DNA of 64,000 bases, from assembly GCA_963971425.1 (NCBI GenBank), contig OZ020526.1, positions 5,669,976 through 5,733,975 on the forward strand. The letters run 5' to 3'. The notes beneath the pieces are model-generated. The model worked only from the letters and a program-made list of their open reading frames with translations, was not told the DNA's origin and ran no database searches. Of the stretch, positions 18,231 to 63,284 are shown piece after piece. Within the stretch, counting starts at the first letter, position 1. Each line of letters opens with the position of its first letter. This DNA comes from Bryoerythrophyllum caledonicum (taxonomy: Eukaryota > Streptophyta > Bryopsida > Pottiales > Pottiaceae). A program made the translations under genes and the position numbers.

Positions 18231-22974
<4,744 letters not shown>

Positions 22975-34975: not shown

Positions 34976-35066
34976 CAAATTAGTCCCGGTTAAGGAAGGG
35001 GGGGGTTATCTTTACAACTATACACACTATAGACATCCGGGGTACACGAGGGACGAAGCTATCTTG

Positions 35067-35160
35067 CGTGCGGTGAGGCGTGAGCGGTGAGCGGTGAGGC
35101 ATGAGCGGTGAGCGGTGCGACGTGAGCGGTGAGACGTGAGCGGTGACCGGTGAGCGGTAA
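35067..35160. repeat. GTGAGCG-type short tandem repeat
   Basis: A run of GTGAGCGGTGAGGC / GTGAGCGGTGAGAC variants. It is followed by three AT-rich ~24-base units with TATACGAAAGTAACTTTTT up to about 35265. No gene. Confidence 0.8.
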
Positions 35161-35783
35161 GAAAAAAGTTTGTAAAAAGTTTCTTAAAATTGTCACTTTT
35201 TTACTATATGGAAGTAACTTTTTGACTATACGAAAGTAACTTTTTTTCTATACGATAGTAATTGAACTACAAGAACTGAACATTATATTAGGGAACAAAA
35301 TATGAAATAAGGATTCCAAGAGGGCCTTATGACCGAAAACAGGGCACGACAATTTCCCGGAAATGACCGTGGACCTAAAATAGGGTTTATGGTCCTTCAA
35401 AAAGTGTTTGAGGTCCATACTTCAACGCCGGTCCGAGACGACCATAAACTACCCCGGGGAAAATGTCAGATATCAAGAACAATGAGGTCTAGGGTTCAAT
35501 TCCTTGTAAAATCTTATACTTGACGAGATAGGCGATAGTAGGCAATTGCAGGAACGACTCCTACCCCGGGGAAAAAAAAAAAAAAAAAAAAAAGAGGAAA
35601 AAAACGAAAAAAAAAGCCTCTAGAAAAAAATGTGAAAAAAAAGTGAAAAAAAAAATCTCAAAAAAACATTGAGCGATTCTAGAACACTTCAAATTATTGC
35701 CAATACAGCGGTGGCCCTGTTGTCTCACCGTCTCATATATATTATAGAAAATAGGTACAAGGGATACTTCGGGTTTGGGGTCA

Positions 35784-38700
35784 CTAGTTCTGAAGCAAGA
35801 CTTCGAGAACGCGCTTAATCTCGTTGAAGCTAAAACTAGGGGCGTGCATGAAGACATTCACCTCCGGATCTAGCTCACAAATAATGGTGAAGATAAAATA
35901 AAGGTGTTTGCAGTAACACCACTGAGGACGTCTACCAAGAGACTTGCTGGACATCTCCTTGAAAGACAGGCAGTCACAACTAGGAAATTGACTGATAGAG
36001 ATCATGTAGTTTGAAACCTTAGTTATGGATTTGGACTCGAACGAGAGAATGCAGCCAAAGGCAGGGTCAGGGAGCATAAGAAGGTAACTGACTTTTCCAA
36101 GAACCGAAAGCGCAGATGCGCAGCTGTTCCGATGTCTTGTGGTTGGGGCCTTCGGATTCCGGCGGACGTTCTTGCCGAATCTCCGTTTCGGATGCTCATC
36201 TGAGTTCACCGGAGTTGGAACAGATTTCAGGTCAAATATTGCACCATCCTGAGAGAACAACTTCCGGGGAGAGAGCATTAAGCGTTCCGCGAGTCGAAAA
36301 CCTGCATTTCCAAGTCGTAGAATCTCGGCCTTCGTAAGGGACGTGCCAGCTTTCACCGGCCAAACGTCAGGGACCGCTGGCTTGGAAATTACCCAGTCCC
36401 TTTTTGATCCCATCACACAGCGATTGATGTCATCGTTACAGAAGAAAAACTGCATCTTATCAAGCCACGTCTGCTTATAGTTCTTCATCATGCCAGTGTA
36501 AGTTGGTGCGGCAGTACTCTTATTGTTCTGCACAATTCGAGCAGTACACTTCTTCTTCGTACCAACCTGTTGGACAAAACAGACTTTCGTTGATGTCCTC
36601 GAAAGCCTAGCAATATGCCACTTGCACTCGTCACAGGCAGTCTCCAACACACCCATATTACAGGTTACCCTTGGTGATGTTCCTGGTGTAGGGGTATTGG
36701 CGAGATTCGTTGGAGCTTCCGCAACTATTGAATACACACAATCATCAGTGGTAAGGTCCACGGTAATTCGTGAAGACGCCCTTGTCGCGACTCTAGGACG
36801 TGAAACGCTAATCTTGTCTGGACGATGAGAATCAAACTCAGATCCTGGAGGACGGTCAGGCTTCCGTTTCAGGGACATAAAGACTTCCTCTCCTTCCAAA
36901 TGCGGAGGGCGAGTGCAAAACTCAGCAGCTCCAGGCATGTTACAGAAAGCCTCATGAAGTGATTTTGAGTTCCCTGAACGTTGAGCAATCTGATGCGCAA
37001 CACGAAGTCGAAGCTCTTCCTTCCCAGGCCCTTGCCCTCCTCGCTCACCTGTAGAGTATTGATAACAAGCCACGACTTGCATGAATGCACGAACCATGTC
37101 ATCGACAGTGGCAACGTATAGATCATTTCCACGTTTTCCAGACTGTTGCAACCACTTGTTTTGGACAGTCTCCGCTAAATTGCAAGATGGCATTTCAGCC
37201 AATTCAGATTCGGAAAGTTCCTGCATACGTCAATCAAGAATGAAAGATCAAATAACTTGAAAAAATTAGCAAAAAATAGAGAATTAGTTCAATCGAGAAG
37301 AGCGAGACAACAAGGGAAGACTACGTATAAAGAAGTAAAACCAATATTCAGGTCCCGTCTAAAAGAATTAAACGGTTTCCATTAGTTAGTACATTGCAAT
37401 AGTTGAGGTAAACCAAAGGAAGGTGTGCCGTCAACGGCACATCCAACTGCAAGTGAAAAAGACAGAGGTGGACTGATTAAAACAAATTCCAGAAGAACAA
37501 AAAGAAGACGGCGCAATATTTGTGAAGAAAGAAATCTGACGCAGTGAACTTGCCCAATCTGTTCTGCCGCTAACGGCAGAGAACAATGGTGCGCCTCATG
37601 AGGCGGTTAAATCGTAGAATCCGGGAGTGTCCAAACCAGAAGGCATGTCATCAAGAAGCCTACTGAAGGTTTTTGAACCACAGGAAAACGGTGTGCCGTT
37701 GACGGCACACCCCCAAAATATAGTCTTGTCCTCACTATCATGGTCTACAGAGCAAGGGTGTGCCGCTAACGGCACTCCTTTTCAGACAACAATATCCAGA
37801 GTGCCGTTACTCTGGTGCCCAAATTTGTCAAAAACCTGAAAATTCGACGAAAAGGAATTTGTCAAATATAAAAGCTTTCTGGAATGAATAAAGTAGAGAC
37901 ATACCGATACCATAAATCCACCCCATTGACGATACCGGAAATGCCAGAAGGCAAGCCACAAATCAAGACGTACGGCACCAGCATCAGATGTTGCGCCCGA
38001 CGATAACCACCACGCTTTGATAGCCAAGTACTTTGCTTCGGCTTCTTCCATTGTCTTAGCGTCTTTGTATAGCTTGCAAAGCTGACGATGTTGTTCTTGA
38101 AGGTCAGCTCTAATGTCAGCCTTCGTATGCTTTTCAAGGGATTGAGTCCAGTGAAAAAGGCACGTTCTCTCCCGATTCTCCATCGGAACCGAAGCATCAC
38201 CACTCCCGTAAAGAATACGGACTGCATTCCAGTTGGCCTGTGCGCTATCAGCCATAAATCCCTTGAATGAAACTGTCGGTACATCGTGTCGTGCAGCAAC
38301 TGCATTTAGGTTCTTCCAAAACACTAGCTGAGCTTTGACGTCTTCGGATTGCATGTCACATACGGCGATCGTCATCACACGGCAGTAGGTTGAGTCGTAC
38401 ACATGACACCCCATCGTGGTCCATCCCTTGACTCGTTTGACATGATCAAACATGATCCAGGAATCCTCAAGGTCCCCTCCAGGTTGCATTCGCTTCACAA
38501 GGTCGACGCCGCTGCCTGGACCAACTTCCGCCATCTTAAACACGAACACCTTGTCCGAATCGGCGCCTTGGCCCGGAAATCTATTCTCTTGTACAAATGC
38601 CCAGTTGCTTGATCCCCGAAGTTTAGTAATGCTATCCATTATACCAAAGCGGCGCAAATATCTAAAAGTTGTAACCTCGTTACGGATAGTAGGGGATGTC

Positions 38701-40025
38701 ATTTGCTTAAATTTCTCTAGCACCGGAACCAATTCGTCCAAGGCAAGCGGCTTCTGTGACACTCCCTTCGGACACAGCAGTAGCTCACCTAGAAACTCTT
38801 TACTTGCTTCTAAAATAATGGCAGAGTTTGTAGCTGTTGGTGTCCGTTCAACTTGCTCCAAAATGAGAGTCTGCAGCTTCGTGGATGAATCTCGACAGTT
38901 GCCTAGTTTTACAGGATGCACATGTGTTCCCATATGGACAGATAAACGTGACATAGTATCCTTACCCAGAACATAGTAAATTTTTGCATGGCAAGTTGCC
39001 AAGCAGGTAGGCTGTACTCGGCAAAGTCTGCAGACCACTGTTGAACCAGGTGGAGTAGTCCCACCGACCCCAAATACCGTTGACGACGTGCCCTCCCACT
39101 CCGTCTCATTTACGTTAGACGCTCTATGCTTACGCTCGAAGTATTCGCATTGAGGATTAAGACATTGTAAATGTCCCAAACAAGAAGATGTCCTGAAGGT
39201 GAGGTTAGAATCATTGGCAATGTGAGTGGTAACGGTTCTTGTCCAACTATATCCGTCATGTTTCTTATCCATACCAAAGAGAGACCCAGCCTGAGAAGAA
39301 GGATTTCCTATCCCCAAGGGTGGAAGCTCGAAGAGGACATCTCCATTAAAAACTGCTGGAAGAAAGTCAACCTTCTCAACTCTAATGGAATTAAAATCTA
39401 TCTTAGTTAGAACAGATTTGGATCTAGATCTAGACCAAAGATTACGTAGACAGTCGATGGTACTAGAAGACTTAATAGGATTAGGATTCTCCCTGGGCTT
39501 GAAGCTTGAAGGCGGAGGAAAACTGGCACCCGTGGCCGGAGCCGCGGCCGGAAGTGATGATTGCTTCTCCGATTCAGGTGGTCCGTAACCTGGACGATCA
39601 CTGTCGGAGTCATCGCTCAGGATGTGAATGAAGTTCAAATCCGGTTCTAATTTCACTTTCTGCATCAGAGGTGTCACCTGGCTAGCAGTAGTAGACAACT
39701 TGGGTGTTAGGGAAACTGATGGGGAATCGTCTAGACTATCCTTAGAACCATACACTCTGTACTTCCCACACCGAAGTGACCAGACTACTACGTTGTTGCG
39801 AATACAAGATGACTGTGCAATTGTGTATGAGAGCTCTCCCGAAAACTCATCAAATTCCTCTTTCTCAACATTCAAGGACCCCTCAATGATACGGAATCGC
39901 TGACATAATTGAAGGGAACTAAGAGTCGCAACTCCCTCTGAATCAGTAGAGAAACAGATCGGGACAAATGCACTATCACCACGGATTACGACAGATCCCT
40001 CCAAATGATCCGCCAGCGAAGCCAT
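35784..40025 (-). CDS. SWIM-finger MULE-like transposase, possibly domesticated
   Basis: Two minus-strand exons, 40025-37905 and 37220-35784, splice in phase 0 to 1,185 residues. I chose ATG 40025 (MASLADHLEG); the frame is open further upstream but has no other ATG. After a low-complexity N terminus, the core has the layout of a Mutator-family DDE transposase: YDSTYCRVMTIAVCD (D544 likely first acid), FMADSAQANWNAVR (D593 likely second) and CLFHWTQSLEK just after. The C-terminal exon ends in a SWIM zinc finger, CDC near 1122 and CYCKH near 1142. A cysteine pair cluster around CRLCRVQPTC may be another zinc site. Both exons are intact with no stops, unlike typical TE debris. The intron between them carries four or five family A palindromes. 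It is head-to-head with the ParB-methyltransferase gene. The third catalytic acid was not located. Confidence 0.75.
37422..37823. repeat. Family A palindromes in the SWIM-gene intron
   Basis: Dyads of about 22 bases with arms GGTGTGCCG and CGGCACACC around four variable bases: 37422-37444, 37561-37584 (arms GTTCTGCCG / CGGCAGAGAAC), 37690-37712 and 37757-37778. 37588-37610 (GGTGCGCC / GGCGGTTA) and 37798-37823 are degenerate. The spacer bases vary (TCAA, CTAA, TTGA) while the arms are kept, so the copies are not simply one recent amplification. Confidence 0.85.
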
Positions 40026-41221
40026 TCTAATCAAAGAACGAACCAGCGAATTATGAGAATCAAAAAGAAACAAGGGGTCCTCGAACTGGCAGGAAGGTGT
40101 ATCATGGCATGTTCAAAGCCTGCTGTGTGCTGAATTAATGCGATTGGAAGATTAATTGGGGATTGTGCTATAAAATCACTGTAGCCGTCAAGTTCGATTG
40201 CAGTGCACCAAAATATATTGTCAGGTGGAATTATTTTAGTAAATGAGTACAATATCCTATTTTGGTACATACGATTTATGATTATAGAATTTTGATTGGA
40301 ATTGACGATATACTCCCAATTTTGGTGGCAGTACGAAAGAGTATCTGGAGGTTTTGCCACATTGAAGCCCCATAAATGTTATTCAAAATGGCTATGGCGG
40401 TTCTAGTCATTTATGCTAGCAGGGGCCGGCGCCAACATGGGGGTACAGACTAATGAACAGAATGAAGTACTGGACGGTGTAGTTAATTAGGACATAGTCA
40501 CCAGGGTTAATGGAGTCATCCATATTGGACCCAGATATGCCTATTCCAGAAGCTCTATTTTAGTGATCGAAAAACACTGATGAGAAGTAGATCCGTGAGA
40601 GGAAGTGCAATGGGGAAGTCTAAGGATTCCTATCTTGAAACATCCAAAAGACTAGACTTTGATGCTGACATTGTCGATGATAGGGAGAGAAGTTCTGTGC
40701 TAGCTGGAATTTCAGAAGGCTATGTCGTAAGTGGTCATTTCCAAAAGGGAACCAATGATTCAGCTGCTGATGATATCGGCGAGGGGACCGATGTTGAGCA
40801 TGAACTGAGAGAATTGAGCGCTTGCTCAAGTACTTGAGAGATGTGGACACTTTGATTTAGGGTTTGTAGTCAATTGTGATTAAAATTAATTTCAGGGTAA
40901 TGAAACAATCGTGATTGATAGCAGATGGTGAATTTCTCAGAGAGTGAAGAGGTAGGTTGTGATTATCTGAATTCTTGTTTAGCGCAGCTATATTGTTCAG
41001 AGAAGTGATACCGAATCCGGACTACAGTCTTTTAAGGTTTAAGTTGTCTATGATGCGTGCGGCGGGTTTGATATCATGCCGTCTGATGTATCTTCCCAGG
41101 AAGTGTGTTAGACGTCGGGCGTCGAGTGCAGATGCACTGTGAGTACTATCTGACCTAGTATACTTTCGGGTGTGCAGGAGACAGTCATCAGCGCGCGGGA
41201 GTGATCGCCATATCGTCTAAG
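40026..41221. other. Divergent promoter region between two island genes
   Basis: About 1.2 kb between the divergent starts at 40025 (minus) and 41222 (plus). An 86-codon plus-strand ORF from ATG 40580 ends at 40837 and has a donor-like GTCGTAAGTGG at about 40725. It might be an alternative first exon, but I found no acceptor in phase, so I do not call it a gene. Confidence 0.4.
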
Positions 41222-44200
41222 ATGGATGGCGGCGAAGCATTTCTGGGACAGGCCAGCAAAGGTACGAACTCCGCTTGCTTTACTGCCTGATTATAGAGTT
41301 GTGGGTTGCGGTAGGGTTTAGAGCATACAAGTTCTGTAATCCGTTGCGATATTTTCAACTTCACTGCACTGTGAGGTCAATCTGACTTCTAGATCAACTG
41401 TGTAAAGAAGACAGTGAAGTGCTAGCGGTAGTAGTCGCCGGACCCTCGACGATAGGTGGGGGAGAAGCATCAACGACTCCATGATCTCGAGGTATGAAAT
41501 CATCGTGCTTTTTGCGTTATAATTGTGTATAGGATTGCTGTAAGCGGTTTGCTTATTAATCGTGTCATACTTCCCATCGGAAATAAAATTCTTGGGCCGT
41601 AGGGTTTGGCGCCGAAGGGTGATGGCGCCGAAGGTTATGTAACCGTAGGTTTTGGCGCTTTCGGTTATGGTGCCTAAGGTTATGGAACCCGTGGTTATGG
41701 CGCCTTAGGTTATGTCGACCAAGGTTATAGCGCTTATGGATTATGGCCATCATGTTTGTCGCCATAGGGTTCGGCACTGCGTTAGTCATATCCCTGTCTG
41801 TAAACAAGGACCTTGCGGAGGGTGTGCCGGTGGCGGCACACCTTCCGCGAAAGGATATCTTCTGATGAGCCTGTGTTTTGGGCGGAGTTGGTGTCGCCAC
41901 AATGAAATGATCGTCAACACCATCTAGGACTTCCCGAGACTGATGTTGGAGGGTGTGCCGCCACCGGCACACCTTTCTGTGCACCTCTTCTCGGAGTCGG
42001 GCTCATACATACGGTTGATTCGCCCAAACTTGTGCATGTCTTCTCGGATTGGAGCTCATTTAGGTGACTGCCATAAAAGTGATTCGTGCTGAATTAGGTG
42101 ATTGAGTCTTGATGTTACTTATATTCCATCTATCTCCACCCAGTTCATTACTGTTCTGCCGTCTTGGATCACGTTCACAAATGATGCTTGAGTGAATCGG
42201 TAGCTCAGCAAACTGCCTACTGTTATACTACGTCGGCTCTCACCCTGAACCGAGTCTTGAATTGGCTTGCTATACTCCGAATTTAGAGGTATTTTTTAGA
42301 ATAGGCTTAATCTATTGTAGATCCATAATTTGGAAGATGAGCTGTTATCTGAATGGGATATCATATCTTTTCAGATTTAATCTATCACACCTGTCTTGAG
42401 GAAGTTCGCATTGATAATATCGCACATTAGAGCTCCGTTCATCTGATGCGCACATTCCCAATCATGTCCCTCTAATGATCTCTACTGCATTTTTAGAATT
42501 GGAGAGCCAATCTGATGTGTCACGACGAGGAGAGGAACGTGATACTGAGATGGAGACAATATATTCCTTGAATTCTACAGTGCAGCCATCAGGTATTTTT
42601 CCATCGGAGCTCTCTAATTATCAGTGGAGTTTTGAATTTATCACTTACAATTTTGTAACTGCAGAAAGTGCAGACGCGTTGGATCTGGATGAAGATGGGG
42701 CGGAGAGTGATGATATTGCTGATGTCCAAAGACCTGTAGGAAATCCTTCAAATCCACTATCAGCCGAGGATTTGGAGAAGCAGATGGATGACCTTGTCTT
42801 ACAAGAGACCGTGAACACGACTGCAGTTTTAGACGGTCTTCGATATCAGCCCAAAGAGAAGTCGAAGATTAGCATTCCTCTTTGTTGGATGATTGGGCTG
42901 CCCATTGTGAGACCTCACCTGAAGAACGATGTAATGGGGCTTGGCTCGCATTTTCTAAAGAACGGCTACATGGAAGGTTCAGGTGTGTTCTATGTAGCAA
43001 CAGAAAATCACGAAGGGAAAACCGTTGAAGTCTCAGAGGATATCATGAAGAGTTGGAGTCCTGAGTGGATTTCAGCTAACGAGGCATTCGAGTCGCGGTT
43101 AAAGGCGGATCCGGACTTGAGAGTCTTTTCGAATATGATGTTCCATGTGTGGGATGGCAACCATCGGCTGCAGGCATGGCTGCCTATTATAAACCGAGAC
43201 CATGGAGATGACCAGAGTTGGCATTTTGCTGTTGAATCCATCCTGCTTAATGTTAATGGATATGTTCCGGTTCTTCTTTCCGCGCTTCATCAAGTTAACT
43301 GGTATGAATCCACGACTTTACAACCTCTGAATGTTTCGCTTCATAATGATTATGATTTCTTATGTCAAAATATCCTTACTGTTCAGGCGAAACCAGAAGT
43401 CATTTGTGACGACCAATCTTGTGCACAAGCTCTACCGTATACAAGGAATGGCTGGTCAGCCTCTGAACTACTTCGAAAAACTCGTATCGAAAGCAGAGAT
43501 CAATGCTGCGGAAGCAAAGCAGAACTCCGTCAAGCGGACGTGGTACACGTTGACTTTAAAGTCTTTGAACTCCGTCCTTTACCAGGTTTGTCCTTTAATT
43601 GACTTTTGATTCATAGTATAGACCTCAAAATAGTTTGTTTTCTTAGATGTGTAAACTTGGAAGTCAGTATATGTGCCTGGCCTTTCCCATATCTACTGCG
43701 GAGAGGAGGTATGCCGCTGGCGGCAGACCTCCACCGCAGAAAGCATTAGAAATTCTGCTCGGCTCATGTATTAGAATAGAGTAAAGCGACTACATGAGAT
43801 TGATTGCTTGAATCCTACGGCACAACAATACCGTGAGTTGTGAATTTGGGACTAATTTGCCGCTACCTGCACACCAACCAACCTACAGCCCGTTGCAGCG
43901 ACATGTATTTATGTGTTGTCGTACTCGCTCTCTAACAATGCTTATACAATAACAAGAGGTGTGCCGTTGGCGGCACACCCCCCAGCGCGTACACTGGGAC
44001 ACGAGATTGGTGCGTATACTAGCTAATAAGCACCAATCTCGTGTCACGACTTGGGCACTGGGGGGTGTGCCGCCAGCGGCACACCTTCCAGCGCGTACGC
44101 TGCGACACGAGATTGGTTCGTATGTGTACATATTCGCACCAATCTCGTGTCACGACTTGGGCGCTGGGGGATGTGCCGCTAGCGGCACACCTTCCAGCGT

Positions 44201-47200
44201 GTACGCTGCGACACGAGATTGGTTCGTATGTGTACATATTCGCACCAATCTCATGTCACGACTTGGGCGCTGGCGGCACACCCCCCAGCGCCCAAGTCGT
44301 GACACGAGATTGGTGCTTTAGCTAGTATACGCACAAATCTCGTGTCCCGGCGTTCGCGCTGGGGGGTGTGCCGCCTACGGCACACCCCTACACCTTTGGA
44401 ATTCACTCAAATTCTGCTCGAAGTCGTGAGCAGGAGATAATGATTTTCGACTTGAGGTAGGCGATTGGAAGATTTGTTTACTGTAGCGGAAGCAAGAGAC
44501 CTTCACAGCGCCATGTGAAGTCTTCAATTCTTTGCTCTGTGATGGTATGCCGCTACCGGCAGACCTTTCTTCTCCCTTACTTGCACTGTACTCTTGATTG
44601 GACATGATCAGTGTTGTTTCTTTCACAATCTAAAATGTGGACGACAGGAGAGTCTGTGAGGGGTATGCCGGCAGCGGCGCACCTTCTACTGCTCAAGGTT
44701 GTCATTCCAAGTAATGGCACTAATTGCTCTGCCGCTGCCATTGAGGCCGATTAGCCGTCGCTACATCACACAAAATAATCCTCGTCGTCAGTTCTCATTT
44801 TTCAATTAGGGCGACGCTTTAGTTGTCTGCCGGAAACGGCTTCTCTCACTTCCATGTTTCAGCTATCTACAATGTGCACAGAATTCTGTAGAGCCACGGC
44901 GCATCGTAAATGTGCGCACCGGAGTAATTACGACTGAATGATCTACTTCAGCAGGTACTCATTTACTGTATTCGGAGAATGATAGTCCGTTGTATTTTTG
45001 ATTTCTTCAGACATCCTTGACTTTCAATGTTCATTATCATTTGTAGTGTGCCGGCAGCGGCACTCCCTTATCCGATACTTCATTCTCCATGAATTTGACT
45101 GTGCTTGTCCATAAAGTTCTGCTACATTAGTCTTAATGTTTGTCTCTCTAACTTTTGTGAAATAATTACAGCAAGAGATCGGAGAAGCTGCAGCGGTGGC
45201 GCAGAGGAAATTTGCTGAGAAATTCTCAGATCCGACAGAGTGGACTTCATCAAATGCGCAAGACTTCGTCAGAAAGGCCGTTGAGAAAATGAAGTTATCC
45301 ACCCTTTCAGAGCTACGTAAGCAGCTTCCAATTGCGGATCCCAAGCACACGCCCGCGTTCCTCGGGCAAGTGAAAATACATTACGAAGCTCATGAGGACG
45401 ACGCTGAGATGACTCAGGAGAAGCTTTGTATGCTCGCGACATCCGCCATGGATCCATTGATGAAAGTGAAGTGGCTGCAACGATGGAACAGAGATGAAAA
45501 TCTTCGCGAATCTCTCAGGTTCCCGAAGTCGAAGTTCCCGGACAGTGAGTTCCCTGAGTGGCTTCACCGAGCAACTTGGTGGGCACAAGTATGCATTCTA
45601 CATAAACTATAGCTTTAAGATATTTCTATGAAATCTTGTAGTCATTCTGTGTGGTTAAAACTATTTTGCAGCTGTCTGTCGAAGCCGAGCGCCTGTTGGA
45701 AGGTTCACTGTCGGATATTGGGGTGGAAGTCAATTACGACCCTGATATTGGCGAGCCCATCACACGAATTGCGGACTACATTGAGGGACTTCGGATTCAA
45801 CTTTGGGAAACAGCATTCTATCGGAAGTTCAACGTGGACAAAGGCGTTCACAAGAACTATGAACCTTCGGATCAGTGTGGGTTTACTTCGGCACTACGGC
45901 GTACGTTATACCGGTACTTTAAGTACATTTTGATGCCCGCAAAAGCCGTAATCCGCAGTCCTCCCTTCTTTGCGTCCTACCTAGATCCCAAGAGCCCTTC
46001 CACGATGATCTCTGAGGGAATCAAGTCTGATTGGGGTCCTCAGCACTGGGATCGCTGCGGCTGGTATCTAGACTGCCCAGTTCAGAGTCCGCCTCATTTT
46101 GACATCTCACTGCGAGACGGCATTCAACCTGAGCTAATTGGAGTGGAGAGTAGTGCTCAAATGGCTTCTGCAACAACTAAAGCAAGGGGTAAGGGCAAAG
46201 CTTCCGCAAAGAAGACTCGTGGATCATCATCGCGCGAGACTGATTTCGAGGCCGTTATTCCCTCAGTTGTTCCCGCGTCTGACGCCACCCAAGCTGCCGG
46301 TGAAAGCTCTCCAGATGTAGACCCCACTCCAGAGCTTCCGGTATCCCCTCCCCCTCAATCATCCCATGTGGTAAAAAGGAAGGCGTTTCATGACGCATTT
46401 TTTCCACCGACTGCGTCAGCTCCCAAGATGGATACCAGGGTGGAGCTTTCATCTCTCCAGGATATAATGAATGGTGAAAAAGACCACCCTTGTATGGTAC
46501 GACTCAACGAGTTCATGCTGAAGGTAAGTTTCTCCATTATTTTGAGGCTACAATTTTTGCATTTCATCTCCTTTTCTGAAATTAATGATATCAGTTCGTA
46601 CCTTTTTGAAATGCCCTTGGCGGCAATATCATTATGCCGTTCTATTGACTAATCAGACTCCTCAGTTTTGATTAGATGTCCTAATTTCAGTTCGTTAAGT
46701 TTTTTTGCTTCAGCCAAAGTTTGCATCCTAAACCACACGAAAATGGAAATTTATGAGATACTGCCTCAGTCGGCTCTCCGCAAAGTATCTATATGCTAAA
46801 GTCTAACTCTGTTTCGGTGCATGCAGTTTTTGTTTTCCAAGATACTTCTTGTAATTTTATCCTAAATTTATTGTTTTTACAGGTGTGTCCTACAACATCG
46901 AACCAGGCCCGCAACGTAGTCTGTCCCCACCGTGGTTTTGATCTAATTCTTGGGGACATTCCGGAAGGCCTCTGGGTCCCTTCTATTTCGAGGGATGCAA
47001 AAGATGTTCCATCTTGGAATATTTATTCTGAACCCGTTGTTGAAGCTGTCTTCAAATTTCCTGATTCATTTCTTTCTGAAAAGGGATGCATTATGGTTAT
47101 CATTCGAGAGTCTGTGCACATCCGCACAGACGTCCGGTCATACGCTGCCACTTACGATTTCAAGTTACTTCGTGAGTGGTGGGGTGTGAACGAACTACGG

Positions 47201-47886
47201 CTAGCATTGCCATCTGATCCATCCAAGAAGGTAAGTTATTATTTATCTTCATTCGGAGCTCCATATTTTAATTTCAGTTCACTAAATTTTGATTCTTTCC
47301 AATGACTTTTCCGTTACAGACCCACCGATTCCGTATCCTCCTCTACGTGAGGAACGCGCTAGGCATGGAGTCCTTCACATACATTGTGAATGCTCAACTA
47401 TCAAAGACTGGATGGGGAGTTGAAGAGACCGACGTCCTTCTCAATCACAACGACCTCACTTCCCAGACTATGTGCGGAAATGTTCCTTGGAGGGCTGGAC
47501 GGGAGAAGGGCGTCATCTTTTTCCAGATGCTTTTCGAGGCCCTCACGAATCAAGGCGCTGTGATTTTTGATGCATTTGCATCTACAGGTATCGTTTATCC
47601 ATCTATTAGCCTCAAATTTCCTACTTTGACTTCGCTTCTATTGTTTTTATGAACAATTCTGTGCTTGTCTGATCCTCTAGGAAACTCCCTTCGAGCTTGT
47701 CGCGCTGCTGGACGGCATTTCGTGGGATTCGAATCGGATAAGGCTATGTTTGAGGTGGTGTTGAAGCCACTTTTTATGCCAAAGCCTCCTCGAGCCACTC
47801 CCGTTCAGCCAGCCTCTGTGGACCTCACCATTGACGAAGATCCCCCAATCCGCAAGATCACCAAGAGAAACCGCTTGAGTAAGTAA
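41222..47886 (+). CDS. ParB-like domain fused to a DNA amino-methyltransferase-like domain
   Basis: Nine exons (41222-41261, 42497-42592, 42665-43301, 43387-43585, 45172-45588, 45672-46523, 46883-47230, 47320-47587, 47681-47886) close in phase to 1,020 residues. ATG 41222 was chosen because its 13-codon exon joins exon 2 in phase; ATG 42475 is an alternative start. An alternative last exon could extend the gene to 48143 through the donor at 47881. Residues ~110-230 resemble ParB/Srx folds, with WDGNHRLQAW (209-217) as the signature. Residues 550-745 include a Lys/Ser/Pro-rich linker (ARGKGKASAKK). Residues 748-1000 have the beta-class methyltransferase order: motif IV first (LILGDIPEG, 768-776), motif I last (VIFDAFASTGNSLRACRAAG, then FVGFESD). 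The catalytic motif reads DIPE rather than (D/N/S)PP(Y/F/W), so activity is uncertain. ParB-methylase fusions are known from phage and bacterial mobile elements. Introns carry family A palindromes. Confidence 0.78.
41580..41735. repeat. GGTTATGGCGCC minisatellite
   Basis: About eight imperfect ~18-base units such as GGTTATGGCGCCTTA and GGTTATGGAACCCGT within intron 1 of the ParB-methyltransferase gene. Many units contain the GGCGCC dyad. Confidence 0.75.
41821..41973. repeat. Two perfect family A palindromes in intron 1
   Basis: 41821-41842 (spacer GTGG) and 41952-41973 (spacer CCAC) have exact 9-base arms GGTGTGCCG / CGGCACACC. The two spacers are reverse complements, so the two sites are the same element in opposite orientation. 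Confidence 0.9.
43708..45066. repeat. Family A array with nested hairpins in intron 4
   Basis: Family A dyads at 43708-43731, 43958-43979, 44064-44085, 44169-44191, 44268-44282 (half only), 44365-44386, 44544-44565, 44662-44683 and 45045-45066. Between 43958 and 44386 they recur at a near-constant 97-106 base period. Each interval contains a second dyad, GACACGAGATTGGT ... ACCAATCTCGTGTC, with an AT-rich loop. The result is an alternating tandem array of two hairpin types. Arm changes are often compensated on the other arm (GGTATGCCG with CGGCAGACC is a partial exception). Confidence 0.9.
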
Positions 47887-48753
47887 GTCGCAACATTTAG
47901 TTTTTCATCACATATTTCCTGTCTTCCATTTTAATTTGTGTGGTCTCATTCTGTTTCAGTTTGATGGCGTTGGCAGCTTCACCGGAAAGGCACTTCTTGC
48001 TCCCTTTGTATGCGGGCCAATCAGCAAACCAGATGGCCAACGTAGTCTCTCCTTTGTCTGCATCTACTTCTTCTAGTTCAGGCTTTAGTTTTATTGAAAC
48101 ACCATATTCATTATATTGGGAGATTGGGAGCCTCCCAAAATAATATGAAAAGCTTGAGCAAACCTAAATATGCAAATGTTAGTGATTTTCATAGTAACCT
48201 TTGAATACTATCTTTCGAGTTTGGTGTCCACTAAAATGGGAGGTGCGAAATTATTTTCAATGTAAAAACAGGCTAGAAAGAAATTGAAGTACATTTTTAG
48301 CTCCAGTCAAGCTGAAAGCAAGCAACACTTACATTTCCAAATATCATTCAAAAACAAAAGATCAAATGTCAAGGTACGAAAATGCATTTCTCAAATCGAA
48401 ACACACTATCAGCTCGAGTCGAGCTGAATGTGCCCCAACAATTCCTATGCGATAAAACATTCAAAATAGCAAATATCAAAGGGCAAATCATCAAGCCCAG
48501 AATTCACTTCTCTCCAAAAAGAAAGCCATACACATTCAGCTCGAGTTGAGCTGAATGTGCCCAAGCAATTCCTATGCGATAAACCATTCAGCATAGCAAA
48601 TAATAAAATATCAAAACTCTGAAATGTATTAAACTCCACAAGAAATGGGTGTACACTTTCAGCTCGATTCGAGCTAAAATCACGCCAACAAATTTTGATC
48701 TTATGCACACATTCTTAGATACTAGTATAAGAGTAACATCTTTGTACTAAAAA
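47887..48753. other. Convergent 3' spacer with family B palindromes
   Basis: Lies between the ends of two convergent genes. Family B-like dyads are at about 48291-48320, 48404-48437, 48531-48564 and 48653-48685, with core CAGCTCGAG(T)CGAGCTGA and flanks CACATT / AATGTGC. They recur every 115-130 bases, and short conserved text between them (CAATTCCTATGCGATAAA) indicates a diverged tandem array. At 48113-48146 ATATTGGGAG and CTCCCAAAATA form another stem, over the alternative stop codon of the methyltransferase gene. Confidence 0.75.
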
Positions 48754-51609
48754 TCATTGCAAAGAAGACGGCGCGGCATCCCTGATCAAACTATCTTGGA
48801 TGATTTGAACTTGATTTCTAGGGATCTTCACAACAGGAAATTCACTCCTACTTCTAGACTTCCATGCAGTCAATAGAGATCCGGTGTCCTCCCATTGCGG
48901 ATGTTGCTCGTCATCAATTGTCCATTGTAGACCGTTGGAAGAGGCCCATCCATCATAGCATCTTTGGACATTTGCATCGCGCGAAGTGGGGCGGAAGTAC
49001 TGTATTTTGATAGAGTTAGGCCTTTCCAGATCCGAATTAGGGTCCGAGAGCGCTTGTGCAATCCAAACAGGACGTTCATCTCCATCACACGGTCTTAATG
49101 CAACAAAATAGCCTGAGTAAACGTCTCGATTAATCCGAAAAGAAGGGGCTGGCCTATCTCGACTCTGCCCAACAAAATGGTCATCGTCATCATGATCCTC
49201 ACGAACAGCGCCCACACTAGTGAATTGGTCCTCGATTGTCTGACCAATACGACTAGAAGGCCAAAAACCATCCTGTAGAGAGGTGGGCAAGTCCATTGGT
49301 TGACTAAGTGACTCTCTAACTGCCCGCCAATAGTAGCTCAAAGGCTCATATCGCCTTCGATATTCACCTGTACGATCCTCACGTGCTTGATGCTCCCAAT
49401 ATGAAATGAATCCAGAAAGACCTTTAATCACTTCAGGAAGATTGCGCATTGCATGTGGCTGCAATGAAGGTGGTTCTCCACGTGGCCACAAAGACCTCCC
49501 ATTTGAATCCTCCTTCCACAATTTGATCCCACCCCCTTCTCTTGGAAGCCAATCATCTTGATGACAAAGAATCTTGTATTTCATCATGGGACATCCGTTG
49601 GAGTCAACAAAGAATTTGAATTGGTGAGCCTTTGTGTGGCCCTGCAATGCTTCGTCTCCACCTGCAATACCTTCACTAATAAAGGACTTGAAGTCCGGGA
49701 CTTCTTCAATCAAGTGGGGGATTGTTGGCACACTTTCGTTCTCCATAAATGATCTCATAAGCAAAGGGATCGTGGGGAAACTCTCCTTCTTCAAAGCCAT
49801 ACTCCATCGACCGAATAATGCATCAATGTCATCATGTGTGTGGCCAACAAGCATGAAATTAACATAAACCTCTCGGAAGATACCCTTTGCAACAAGAAGA
49901 GACCAAAAGCAAAACACATATCTATTTTTGTTGTCACTGACCGCATTGTCCATTTGCACATGCAAAATAGGCGGCAAAGGTTTTGCTGTAGCTAGAGACT
50001 CAGGTGCGGCACGGAGGAATGGGACACAAGTATCTGAAGCTCCTTGCAAAACAGCTCGAAACAATGCAGTTCTCCCCGAATCCAAAAATAATTGTCGAGA
50101 CGATGTCTTCGAAGGTTGTTCTAAGTCTCGCAACAATCTAGCAAAAGATCCCACTGTATAGTTGACATCATGTGGGTAAATGTCCAAGCCATAATGAGCA
50201 TAACGAACATCACCATGACCATGTGCAAGCATTCCAGTAACAGAGATGGGCAACTTCATCAGACCATCTAAATGTTTCGTCTTGTGAGAGAGGACAGGAG
50301 ATGCAGTCTTTGAGTGATCCATCTTGTCGTGCATAATCGTAACACATTCATCCGGAAACTCTTGAGAGCGGTAACGGTTGGAATAATACAACTCTCGATG
50401 AGCCCATGCTGAATCCAAATGGAGATTCAACCTCTGCTGCCACATTAGCGCAGCTTCTGTTCCAGGTTGCTGCAACCTCCGATGGGAATGGTACTTATCA
50501 CACGTTGAACAACGTGCAAAGTTATCCCCAGGTCGTTTTGCATTGTAATCGGAAAAATGGACCCGTCTAATCTTACTCAGCCCTGAAGTGGAAATTTGGG
50601 AAAGCCCGCAACCAACTAAATGGGCATCAATTGCAGGAATTTGATCTTTCCACTTGAAATTTGCGGGAAGAACTTTGGCGACGGATGTCTCACCCGAAGG
50701 CAAGATGCGGGACTTGTGGGGCATGTGGTCAGCATTTCTATTAAGAATGACACGTAATGCTGCGGTAGCGACTACTGTGTGATTTCTAGGTTTCCGTTTC
50801 CCAGAATTACCATGGGCTTGCGCGACTACACCAGCCGCTGCATCCTTGGCATATTCATAGAACGAGGTTTCACTGACGCCCATGATGTGCTGCCAAGCAG
50901 CTGCGCACACATCAACGCCCTCAATGGTCACCACATTTCTACCGTTATTGTCCACATGAAATTGTCCGTGAACATCTAGCTTCATATGCCTTCGAAATTG
51001 AACGGAGGTTCCAAAATACATCCTCATCCGCAATACCTTAATCTTCAATCGTGGGAAGCGTTGAACACAACTCCTCAAGCAACAGCGTTTTCCAGCAACA
51101 GAGTTGATAGATTCGTCAGAGAGGAGAATTGATGATTTTGTTGAAACTATGGTTGAAGGGATCCTAGATGAACTTTCGTAAGAGCGAGTCCTCTCTCCAA
51201 GAGACCGGCTTCTCATTGCCATTACAGAATTGTAAGTATCACGCTGCTGGTGATGCAAGAGACTGACACTATTATAGAAAACTTGACCAACAGGCCAAAT
51301 CTTAACACAATAACGCCATTCGTCCGGTGCTTCATCTTCAACTAATGTCCTGGAGACCTGAATGGCAACGTGCGTATCACCTAATGGAGCATCAGACCCA
51401 GAAATAGCCGTGGTGTGAAGGTTGCGAAGTATTCCAGTGGCAATTGTAACTCCGGACAGGTTTTTCATTTCGACTATCTTACCAACCCAAGAATGCCTTG
51501 GGAGAACTTCGAATTCCATCAAATCAGCATCTACTGGATCGTGGAAAGACGAGTTGTCACTTGACAAATCAAAATCATCATCGATTGAGGCACCGGTTGA
51601 AGTGTCCAT
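48754..51609 (-). CDS. DUF7869-type protein, RNase H-like transposase-derived candidate
   Basis: A single open exon of 951 residues, ATG 51609 to the stop at 48754. Order of landmarks: acidic N terminus (1-35); KRCCLRSCVQRFPRLKIKVL (~174-193); GVDVCAAAWQHIMGVSE (~231-247); a Cys-His cluster CSTCDKYHSH (367-376), probably zinc-binding; TIMHDKMDHS (424-433); LHVQMDNAVSDNKNRYVF (549-566); and LVGHTHDDIDALFGRW (587-602). The last three Asp-bearing blocks match the pattern of DUF7869 proteins and look like an RNase H-type acidic triad, but the fold is inferred. Such proteins are scattered repeat-associated genes in several eukaryote groups. An acceptor-like TTTTGCAG just before the ATG suggests a leader intron. 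Family B palindromes lie on both sides of the gene. The frame is intact, suggesting recent activity or selection. Confidence 0.8.
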   Translation of the reverse strand: MDTSTGASIDDDFDLSSDNSSFHDPVDADLMEFEVLPRHSWVGKIVEMKNLSGVTIATGILRNLHTTAISGSDAPLGDTHVAIQVSRTLVEDEAPDEWRYCVKIWPVGQVFYNSVSLLHHQQRDTYNSVMAMRSRSLGERTRSYESSSRIPSTIVSTKSSILLSDESINSVAGKRCCLRSCVQRFPRLKIKVLRMRMYFGTSVQFRRHMKLDVHGQFHVDNNGRNVVTIEGVDVCAAAWQHIMGVSETSFYEYAKDAAAGVVAQAHGNSGKRKPRNHTVVATAALRVILNRNADHMPHKSRILPSGETSVAKVLPANFKWKDQIPAIDAHLVGCGLSQISTSGLSKIRRVHFSDYNAKRPGDNFARCSTCDKYHSHRRLQQPGTEAALMWQQRLNLHLDSAWAHRELYYSNRYRSQEFPDECVTIMHDKMDHSKTASPVLSHKTKHLDGLMKLPISVTGMLAHGHGDVRYAHYGLDIYPHDVNYTVGSFARLLRDLEQPSKTSSRQLFLDSGRTALFRAVLQGASDTCVPFLRAAPESLATAKPLPPILHVQMDNAVSDNKNRYVFCFWSLLVAKGIFREVYVNFMLVGHTHDDIDALFGRWSMALKKESFPTIPLLMRSFMENESVPTIPHLIEEVPDFKSFISEGIAGGDEALQGHTKAHQFKFFVDSNGCPMMKYKILCHQDDWLPREGGGIKLWKEDSNGRSLWPRGEPPSLQPHAMRNLPEVIKGLSGFISYWEHQAREDRTGEYRRRYEPLSYYWRAVRESLSQPMDLPTSLQDGFWPSSRIGQTIEDQFTSVGAVREDHDDDDHFVGQSRDRPAPSFRINRDVYSGYFVALRPCDGDERPVWIAQALSDPNSDLERPNSIKIQYFRPTSRDANVQRCYDGWASSNGLQWTIDDEQHPQWEDTGSLLTAWKSRSRSEFPVVKIPRNQVQIIQDSLIRDAAPSSLQ

Positions 51610-51747
51610 CTCGGCACTGCAAAATTAAGGCAAAAGTGTAAATAGTTGTCGTAGTATAATAGTACTTCAAGGTCCATCCCACATCAATCAAAGTAAACAA
51701 AATAATAGCACAATTGTTCATCTCCACGATTAGGTGAAAACAAAGCA

Positions 51748-51812
51748 CATTCAGCTCGGGTCGAGCTGAATGTGCACTGCATATTCAGCTCGGGTCGAGC
51801 TAAATGTGCACT
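51748..51812. repeat. Two adjacent family B palindromes upstream of the DUF7869 gene
   Basis: Two copies back to back: arms CACATTCAGCTCG / CGAGCTGAATGTGC and GCATATTCAGCTCG / CGAGCTAAATGTGCA. They sit about 140-200 bases before the ATG, in the expected promoter or leader. Confidence 0.9.
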
Positions 51813-53279: not shown

Positions 53280-53575
53280 TAAAAGTAAAGATTTAGGTTT
53301 AGGGTTCAAATTACATTTTGACATTTAGGGTTTAGGGTTTAAGGTTTAGGATTGCAAGTCCATGATATGAAGTGTAAATTATAGGGTTTAGGGTTTCGGA
53401 CTAGACAATTCTAGAATTAGATTTATGGATTTGGGTTTAGGGTTTAGGTTCAAGGGTTTAGTTTTTAGGGTTTAAGGTCTTATAGTTTATTGTTTAGGTT
53501 TAATGATTTAAATATTAGGGTTCAGGGTTTTAGAGTTTAGTGTTTGGGGTTTAGGATTAGGGTTTAGATTAGCAT
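53280..53575. repeat. Interstitial telomere-like repeats
   Basis: Many imperfect TTTAGGG units on the plus strand (GGGTTTAGGGTTTAAGG and variants). This is the plant-type telomere heptamer, degenerate and embedded in AT-rich DNA, so an old insertion or slippage product and not a chromosome end. Confidence 0.85.
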
Positions 53576-62558: not shown

Positions 62559-63284
62559 GTGCATATTCAGCTCAAGTCGAGCTGAATATGCACAATTGGT
62601 TGATCACGAGGTGCATATTTAGCTTGGGTAGAGCTGAATGTGCACGTGCCATTTTGAATGATGTGCATATTCAGCTCGACTCGAGCTGAATATGCACAAT
62701 TGGTTGATCACGAGGTGCATATTTAGCTTGGGTAGAGCTGAATGTGCACGTGCAATTTTGAATGATGTGCATATTCAGCTCGACTCGAGCTGAATGTGCA
62801 GAGTATGATGAGCTTTGTGTGCACATTCAGCTCGACTCGAGCTGAATATGCACTTCCGGCTCATTAGTATGAGCACAAATGATTGATCGTAATGTGTACA
62901 TTCAGCTAGAGAGAAGCTGAATGTGCATCTTGATTTCAGCTATGAATGCATATTCAGCTCGACTCGAGCTGAATATGCACAGTCTAATGAGCTTTCTGTG
63001 TACATTCAACTTGACTCATAATGAATATACACGTTCAGTTCACTAGTTCATGGGCGTTACATTAATATTTATCAGCACATTCAGCTTGACAAGAGCTTAA
63101 TGTGCACGGTAAAACATTTGTGTGCACATTTAGCTCAAGTAAAGCTAAATGTGCAATAGAAATGATAAAAAACTTCAAACAATTGCAAGTGGTAATACAA
63201 GATTTGAAACTTCTTGATGGAACTACACCTGTGCAATTAAGTGTCGTATTGCATATTCAGCTCGACTCGAGCTAAATATGCAAA
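62559..63284. repeat. Cluster of twelve family B palindromes
   Basis: Best copies are perfect 35-base dyads: arm GTGCATATTCAGCTCGA, one centre base, then TCGAGCTGAATATGCAC. Positions: 62559-62593, 62611-62645, 62663-62697, 62715-62749, 62767-62801, 62819-62853, 62894-62928, 62946-62980, then weaker copies at 62998, 63074, 63122 and 63250. The first six start exactly 52 bases apart, which is five helical turns of DNA. The cluster ends about 80 bases before the next ORF. Confidence 0.95.

Follow-up and report, generated by a model that had tools for sequence, protein, structure and literature searches.

Fusions of ParB to methylases exist in bacteria and phages, and the Mutator-like elements, among which the VANDAL family is counted, capture genes and generate target-site duplications of 8–11 bp. 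In the brown alga Ectocarpus, the 21.5-kb element Sola1-1_Ec32 carries an accessory gene for a 1,104-residue protein that combines a ParB-like region with an N4/N6-methyltransferase; the source proposes that this protein binds and modifies its own transposon and cites cases from green and red algae (PMC12477816). VANC binds motifs that recur in introns and between genes of its own elements and that diverge between families (PMC5735166), and causes methylation loss on its own VANDAL elements (PMC5735166, PMC10398659). Here we describe a locus of the moss Bryoerythrophyllum caledonicum, contained in a 64,000-nucleotide stretch of contig OZ020526.1 (assembly GCA_963971425.1, positions 5,669,976–5,733,975, forward strand; hereafter the window), in which a Mutator-like transposon carries a transposase-like gene, an oppositely oriented accessory gene with a predicted methyltransferase fold, and arrays of the palindrome TGCCG-N4-CGGCA. 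The reading that we favour, with a probability of about 0.5, is that the accessory protein acts on the palindrome-bearing DNA of its own element against silencing or to set its activity, in the manner of VANC.

Analysis of the 437-Mb genome (894 contigs) reveals a homologous block common, in whole or in part, to nine fetched copies. The full element measures ~14 kb; some 0.9 kb at the 3′ side, including the 3′ terminal inverted repeat, is missing from the window copy and does not occur elsewhere in the window. Across long matches, nucleotide identity to the window is ~95–98% for seven copies, 99–100% for C35, a short contig that duplicates the window locus, and 78–88% for C15_1.8M. All six copies for which both ends were recovered possess inverted termini, exemplified by C1_12.7M (inverted match of its ends, best 52 bp at 90%), and are flanked by target-site duplications that measure 10 bp in five copies and 11 bp in the sixth, lengths that fall within the Mutator-like range and whose sequence differs each time; two further copies are represented by the 3′ end only. 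Because the gene is multi-copy and lies in the shared block, within terminal inverted repeats and 10–11-bp duplications, it is, with near certainty, an accessory gene of the transposon. The initial annotation had placed a plant gene within a repeat island; the gene is real, but it belongs to a multi-copy transposon that had been missed, and its copy number and position inside the element rule out a novel domain fusion in a gene of the host.

The transposase-like protein is encoded by two exons (40025–35784, minus strand; 1,183 residues). A SWIM match (PF04434) falls below the cut-off in the subB and subD relatives (E 0.25 and 0.031) and is unseen in the window transposase by Pfam search. The label Mutator-like is therefore based on the target-site length, the long termini and this weak SWIM match.

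The two genes are linked across the genome. Genomic figures refer to single-exon matches, comprising the best 150 of 1,762 candidates for the ParB exon, the best 150 of 1,475 for the methyltransferase exon and the best 130 of 2,578 for the transposase core, and the counts that follow hold among the matches listed. A divergently oriented ParB-exon match lies 2–16 kb from at least 64 of the 130 transposase matches; a ParB or methyltransferase neighbour accompanies at least 81 of the 130 and both accompany at least 45, while a wrongly placed ParB neighbour is the sole one in a single case (1/130). Viewed from the other gene, at least 64 of the 150 ParB matches have a correctly placed transposase and none has only a misplaced one, and the methyltransferase exon follows downstream on the same strand in at least 91 of the 150. 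The subB and subD relatives display the same divergent two-gene layout, with stop-free transposases that are 66–71% identical; pairwise among the window, subB and subD transposases, the proportions of replacement (pN) and silent (pS) differences are 0.18–0.22 and 0.77–0.84. Additionally, copies of some subfamilies score identically on different contigs, for example seven ParB-exon matches at 280.4 bits on seven contigs (a diverged subfamily including G000:C2:27747151), which points to recent transposition.

The accessory gene comprises eight GT–AG-joined exons (42497–47886, plus strand) that form, by predicted splicing, one stop-free frame of ~1,007 residues. The exons are real, as indicated by the open frame obtained on GT–AG joining, by lengths shared with diverged copies and by low ratios of replacement to silent substitution rates (dN/dS). 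A nine-exon gene beginning at 41222 had been proposed; its eight exons from 42497 onwards stand, whereas the start at 41222 is unsupported, because 41222–41261 and 41393–41491, with splice sites tried, give an in-frame TGA. An in-frame ATG at 42475 requires neither of these segments. The 199-, 348- and 268-nt exons are equally long in the window, subB, subC and subD models, the relatives' models being guided by the window protein and the linker exon being split by the aligner in subC and subD; in the models of L030, L031, C1_12.7M, C6_24M and C15_1.8M, introns are missing, extra or shifted. Among four spliced relatives from the same genome, the ParB-like part is 65–83% identical and the methyltransferase part 46–81%. 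The DGNHR motif and the permuted methyltransferase motifs were recovered where they had been reported, at levels of identity among relatives (46–83%) far beyond chance, with FDAFASTG spanning the last exon junction and FVGFESD at 47719–47739.

The encoded protein is under purifying selection, as the linkage and the dN/dS ratios demonstrate. Ratios were obtained by the Nei–Gojobori method for the window against C15_1.8M, L030 and L031, which contain 2, 6 and 5 stops; since these comparators carry stops, the low ratios reflect history before decay. The ParB-like part yields 0.07 (C15_1.8M) and 0.10 (L030), L031 being saturated at silent sites, and across the three copies the middle part yields 0.07–0.08, the methyltransferase part 0.18–0.23 (dS 0.37–0.59) and the linker 0.27–0.34. 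Most of the more distant pairs have reached saturation at silent sites but not at replacement sites. Two close copies show higher ratios (0.18–1.32), as expected of decaying insertions.

The C-terminal region almost certainly adopts a methyltransferase fold. The Pfam model N6_N4_Mtase (PF01555) scores 27.3 bits against the C-terminal part alone (cut-off 26.7) and 25 bits, under the cut-off, against the longer protein, and matches five of five family members, while a PDB profile search of the methyltransferase returns M1.HpyAVI (listed as DpnA), CcrM and M.RsrI. One named plant relative was recovered, a 32%-identical Ceratodon purpureus protein whose model predicts a beta-class amino-methyltransferase fold; this relative (P0002) took the place of the spliced window methyltransferase, with the window exon pieces entering as rows. 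The motif IV to motif I order with a permuted Rossmann fold is present. Together, the Pfam score of the C-terminal part, the PDB profile matches and the Ceratodon model uphold the methyltransferase call of the initial annotation, and the structure prediction that it had suggested does return a Rossmann methyltransferase, for the Ceratodon relative rather than the window protein. The full-length protein search yields no match at E ≤ 0.01 among the 7,993 candidates sharing most words. The one prokaryotic-type match, P0011 (site-specific DNA-methyltransferase, E 0.018), reads DLPYG and has no ParB part in the 250 residues seen. Membership of the beta class is assigned by fold, and the protein is a predicted rather than a proven enzyme.

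Whether this domain is catalytic turns on motif IV. The position reads D-[ILFV]-P-[ED]-G in nine of ten covering family sequences, drawn from the same genome, Ceratodon and other sources (L030 has S for P), and the catalytic (D/N/S)PP(Y/F/W) of an active enzyme is not found. The domain may accordingly be catalytically dead and kept as a scaffold binding S-adenosylmethionine or DNA, a serious contender given the replacement in nine of ten sequences; however, D, G and E on the cofactor side do not vary (alignment A3), the domain is under purifying selection, and the nearest prokaryotic-type matches read DLPYG, so that at motif IV it is chiefly the aromatic residue that differs. An active writer of N4-methylcytosine (4mC) or N6-methyladenine (6mA) is a tentative proposition, a shade short of an even chance.

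The N-terminal region is termed ParB-like for its DGNHR motif. The ParB/Srx call made earlier goes back to this motif, and no ParB profile matches the region: ParB_N (PF02195) is not among the Pfam matches at E up to 10, NCBIfam yields no ParB model, and the PDB profile search does not confirm it. In hhalign comparisons with 12 bacterial ParB domains and with two subsets of 7, DGNHRLQAW is placed over G-x-R-R-x-x-A at a non-significant P of about 0.1 each. The single-sequence fold of the ParB-like exon is too poor to read (predicted local distance difference test, pLDDT, 38.6). L031, which lies outside the MFHVWDGNHRLQAW alignment, has a stop inside that sequence.

The palindrome is concentrated in the element, where it forms arrays in non-coding DNA. 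All 13 exact copies of TGCCG-N4-CGGCA in the window lie within the element and outside every modelled exon; allowing one mismatch raises the number to 17, again all within the element, versus 0.78 expected, and none in the other 51 kb. The six two-ended copies contain 11–20 palindromes each and none in the 3.5–6.1 kb of flanks fetched. Of the 20 palindromes of subB, 18 occupy the interval between the gene starts, usually at spacings of ~65 bp or multiples of it, and across the window, subB and subD all 37 fall outside the modelled coding exons, which make up about half of the length. The 1.6-kb intron of the accessory gene also contains 106-bp tandem units (43958–44273). The outer arms vary by subfamily yet remain largely symmetrical (GGTG/CACC, GCAC/GTGC, GGGG/CCCC). 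Genome-wide, the longer form TGTGCCG-N4-CGGCACA occurs at 1,046 places, against 0 for the reversed control; 50 of these are listed, all on contig C1, and 50/50 have a matched element gene no more than 4.8 kb away, although zones within 8 kb of element-gene matches make up 1.5% of the stretch holding them.

In a pool of seven close copies, from which C15_1.8M is excluded, window CpGs read TG/CA at 8.8% of non-coding, 6.4% of coding and 3.7% of palindrome positions, the non-coding loss being a sign of host cytosine methylation. CpGs are kept at 153 of 160 palindrome positions versus 1,334 of 1,498 in the rest of the non-coding DNA (P 0.009, a nominal value, the copies not being independent), and GpC is kept at 94.2% in non-coding DNA of the same pool. 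That the palindromes form RNA hairpins, or spread as a nested selfish repeat, without relation to the protein is rather unlikely: the arms could pair into a 9-bp stem with a 4-nt loop, and a different palindromic repeat (TTCAGCTC-N5-GAGCTGAA) occurs in the window beyond the element, but the palindromes lie near element genes at the 50 of 1,046 places listed, none occurs in the other 51 kb of the window, and those of subB sit mostly between the two genes, outside modelled introns.

That an accessory protein might bind and mark the DNA of the transposon encoding it is an idea taken from the algal work (PMC12477816). In the favoured reading, a protein of ~1,000 residues would join a presumed DNA-binding N-terminal region, bearing DGNHR, to a beta-class amino-methyltransferase fold; it would recognise the palindrome arrays in the introns of the element and between its genes, and would either modify the element DNA at N4-cytosine or N6-adenine or occupy it, thereby preventing silencing or setting activity, like VANC of VANDAL elements. 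Action on the element's own DNA is somewhat more probable than not, and anti-silencing as its purpose is close to, though short of, an even bet. A narrower version, in which a self-encoded methyltransferase with a D-x-P-[ED]-G active site writes 4mC or 6mA on its own non-coding palindromes as a self label that blocks host silencing by 5-methylcytosine, with protein and outer arms co-evolving between subfamilies, is improbable as a whole and is offered as speculation.

A role in transposition itself, through end binding, control of excision and reinsertion or copy number, with the palindromes as regulatory sites of the element's own promoters, is unlikely: the divergent position of the accessory gene beside the transposase in at least 64 linked pairs among the matches listed, and the 18 of 20 subB palindromes between gene starts at spacings of mostly ~65 bp or a multiple, speak for such a role, but 11 of the 13 window palindromes lie in introns of the two genes, none at a terminus, and transposition has no need of a methyltransferase fold. 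Capture of a host gene fragment by a Pack-MULE, carried without function, is very improbable, since, for all that Mutator-like elements are known to capture genes and many copies are broken by stops, dN/dS is low against three diverged copies, distant subfamilies are saturated at silent and not at replacement sites, and the gene is retained beside the transposase across diverged subfamilies.

Several observations weigh against the favoured reading. Motif IV lacks the aromatic residue and the first proline of (D/N/S)PP(Y/F/W), and catalysis may be lost; ParB homology is without statistical support in Pfam, NCBIfam and hhalign; and the tie between protein and palindrome is a predicted one, since the palindrome could instead form a hairpin in RNA or be a repeat that proliferates. 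Palindromes are few in subD (4), L031 (2) and L030 (1) and absent from the 5-kb subC stretch, and neither they nor the CpG counts are independent among related copies, which inherit them. Many copies carry a damaged accessory gene (one stop in subD, two in subC, 5–6 in L031 and L030), and the transposase has no Pfam match above the cut-off, with no MULE profile matched.

Table 1. Features of the transposon copy and its genes (positions in the window)
Feature	Position	Strand	Remarks
Mutator-like transposon copy	35049..48097		homologous block common to 9 fetched copies, whole or part
5′ terminal inverted repeat region (GGGACGAAGCTATCTTGCGTGCGGTGAG..., GCGGTGAG repeats)	35049..35165	+	inner limit approximate; C1_12.7M ends match inverted
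Transposase exon 2, SWIM-like CxC...CxH motif	35784..37220	-	open frame
4 palindromes (37426, 37565, 37694, 37761)	37426..37774		transposase intron
Transposase exon 1, C-x2-H 'CLFHW'	37911..40025	-	stop-free frame; subB, subD homologs 66–71% identical
2 palindromes (41825, 41956)	41825..41969		upstream of first supported accessory exon
First accessory exon supported by spliced alignment	42497..42592	+	in-frame ATG at 42475
Exon carrying ParB-like region	42665..43301	+	best 150 of 1,762 genomic candidates scored, all matches
WDGNHRLQAW, ParB-like motif	43150..43179	+	MFHVWDGNHRLQAW invariant in 5/5 aligned sequences
Exon, 199 nt	43387..43585	+	equal length in subB, subC, subD models
7 palindromes (43712, 43962, 44068, 44174, 44369, 44548, 45049)	43712..45062		1.6-kb intron
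Exon, 417 nt	45172..45588	+	417 in subB and subD, 414 in subC
Exon, 852 nt, with fast-evolving linker	45672..46523	+	linker dN/dS 0.27–0.34 against three copies
Exon, 348 nt, N-terminal half of methyltransferase	46883..47230	+	equal length in subB, subC, subD; best 150 of 1,475 candidates scored
LILGDIPEG, motif IV position	46943..46969	+	~560 residues after WDGNHRLQAW
Exon, 268 nt, end falls within motif I	47320..47587	+	equal length in subB, subC, subD models
Last exon: remainder of motif I, FVGFESD, stop	47681..47886	+	PF01555 match

Within the element, 85–86 bp are lacking at 40547–40551, between two CAGAA repeats, and are present in eight of the nine fetched copies including C35, the ninth not aligning there; a degenerate tandem array of GGTTATGGCGCC-like units occupies 41596–41746, upstream of the accessory gene. 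Just past the truncated 3′ side, a 956-residue frame (48757–51624, minus strand) matches DUF7869 (PF25273, E 4e-43) and possibly represents another transposon. The second palindromic repeat, TTCAGCTC-N5-GAGCTGAA-like and partly tandem, lies outside the element at 48403–48686, 51745–51812 and 62559–62853. The window additionally contains a perfect (TC)125 microsatellite (22218–22467) and a degenerate TTTAGGG-like array of the plant telomere type (53311–53571); Rfam at gathering thresholds and a tRNA scan of the window return nothing.

Transposon escape from silencing is understood molecularly in few plant elements, and here a large, apparently recently active family encodes a protein with a predicted methyltransferase fold together with a candidate target site. 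With this locus, the range of the algal ParB–methyltransferase transposon genes would widen to include land plants and a further class of transposon, and the question whether transposons of eukaryotes mark themselves with 4mC or 6mA would become testable. Iyer 2011 and Petroll 2025 are the sources cited for the algal transposon proteins; a literature search over the full texts available found no land-plant or Mutator-like precedent, although Iyer 2011 could contain one. The earlier statement that no plant protein with both domains has been described may stand, but the two-domain kind itself is described in algal transposons (PMC12477816).

Set against Sola1-1_Ec32 as described, the moss protein likewise pairs a ParB-like region with a methyltransferase fold at similar length, on the strand opposite the transposase of a large DNA transposon. 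By description, the algal carrier is a brown-algal Sola element of 21.5 kb, the moss carrier a Mutator-like element of ~14 kb with 10–11-bp duplications, a non-canonical motif IV and palindrome arrays. The opposite-strand layout and the methyltransferase fold are shared with the algal accessory proteins, and the ParB part by motif only. With VANC the moss element shares a second transposon protein and repeated motifs, in the moss candidate targets, in its own non-coding DNA, whereas the accessible VANC text mentions no methyltransferase fold and the action of VANC, again compared by description, was demonstrated by experiment while that of the moss protein is inferred. Relative to M.MboIIA, CcrM, M.BceJIV and rotifer N4CMT, motif order, cofactor motif and predicted fold agree, and the beta-class amino-methyltransferases differ from the moss protein in its catalytic motif, its fused N-terminal region and its setting in a eukaryotic transposon. 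The bacterial and phage ParB–methylase fusions resemble it in domain order but differ in that the moss protein has no significant ParB match. Collectively, the moss element would unite features of the algal ParB–methyltransferase genes and of VANC in one family, and what is new is the land-plant Mutator-like carrier, the odd motif IV and the palindrome in the non-coding DNA of the elements.

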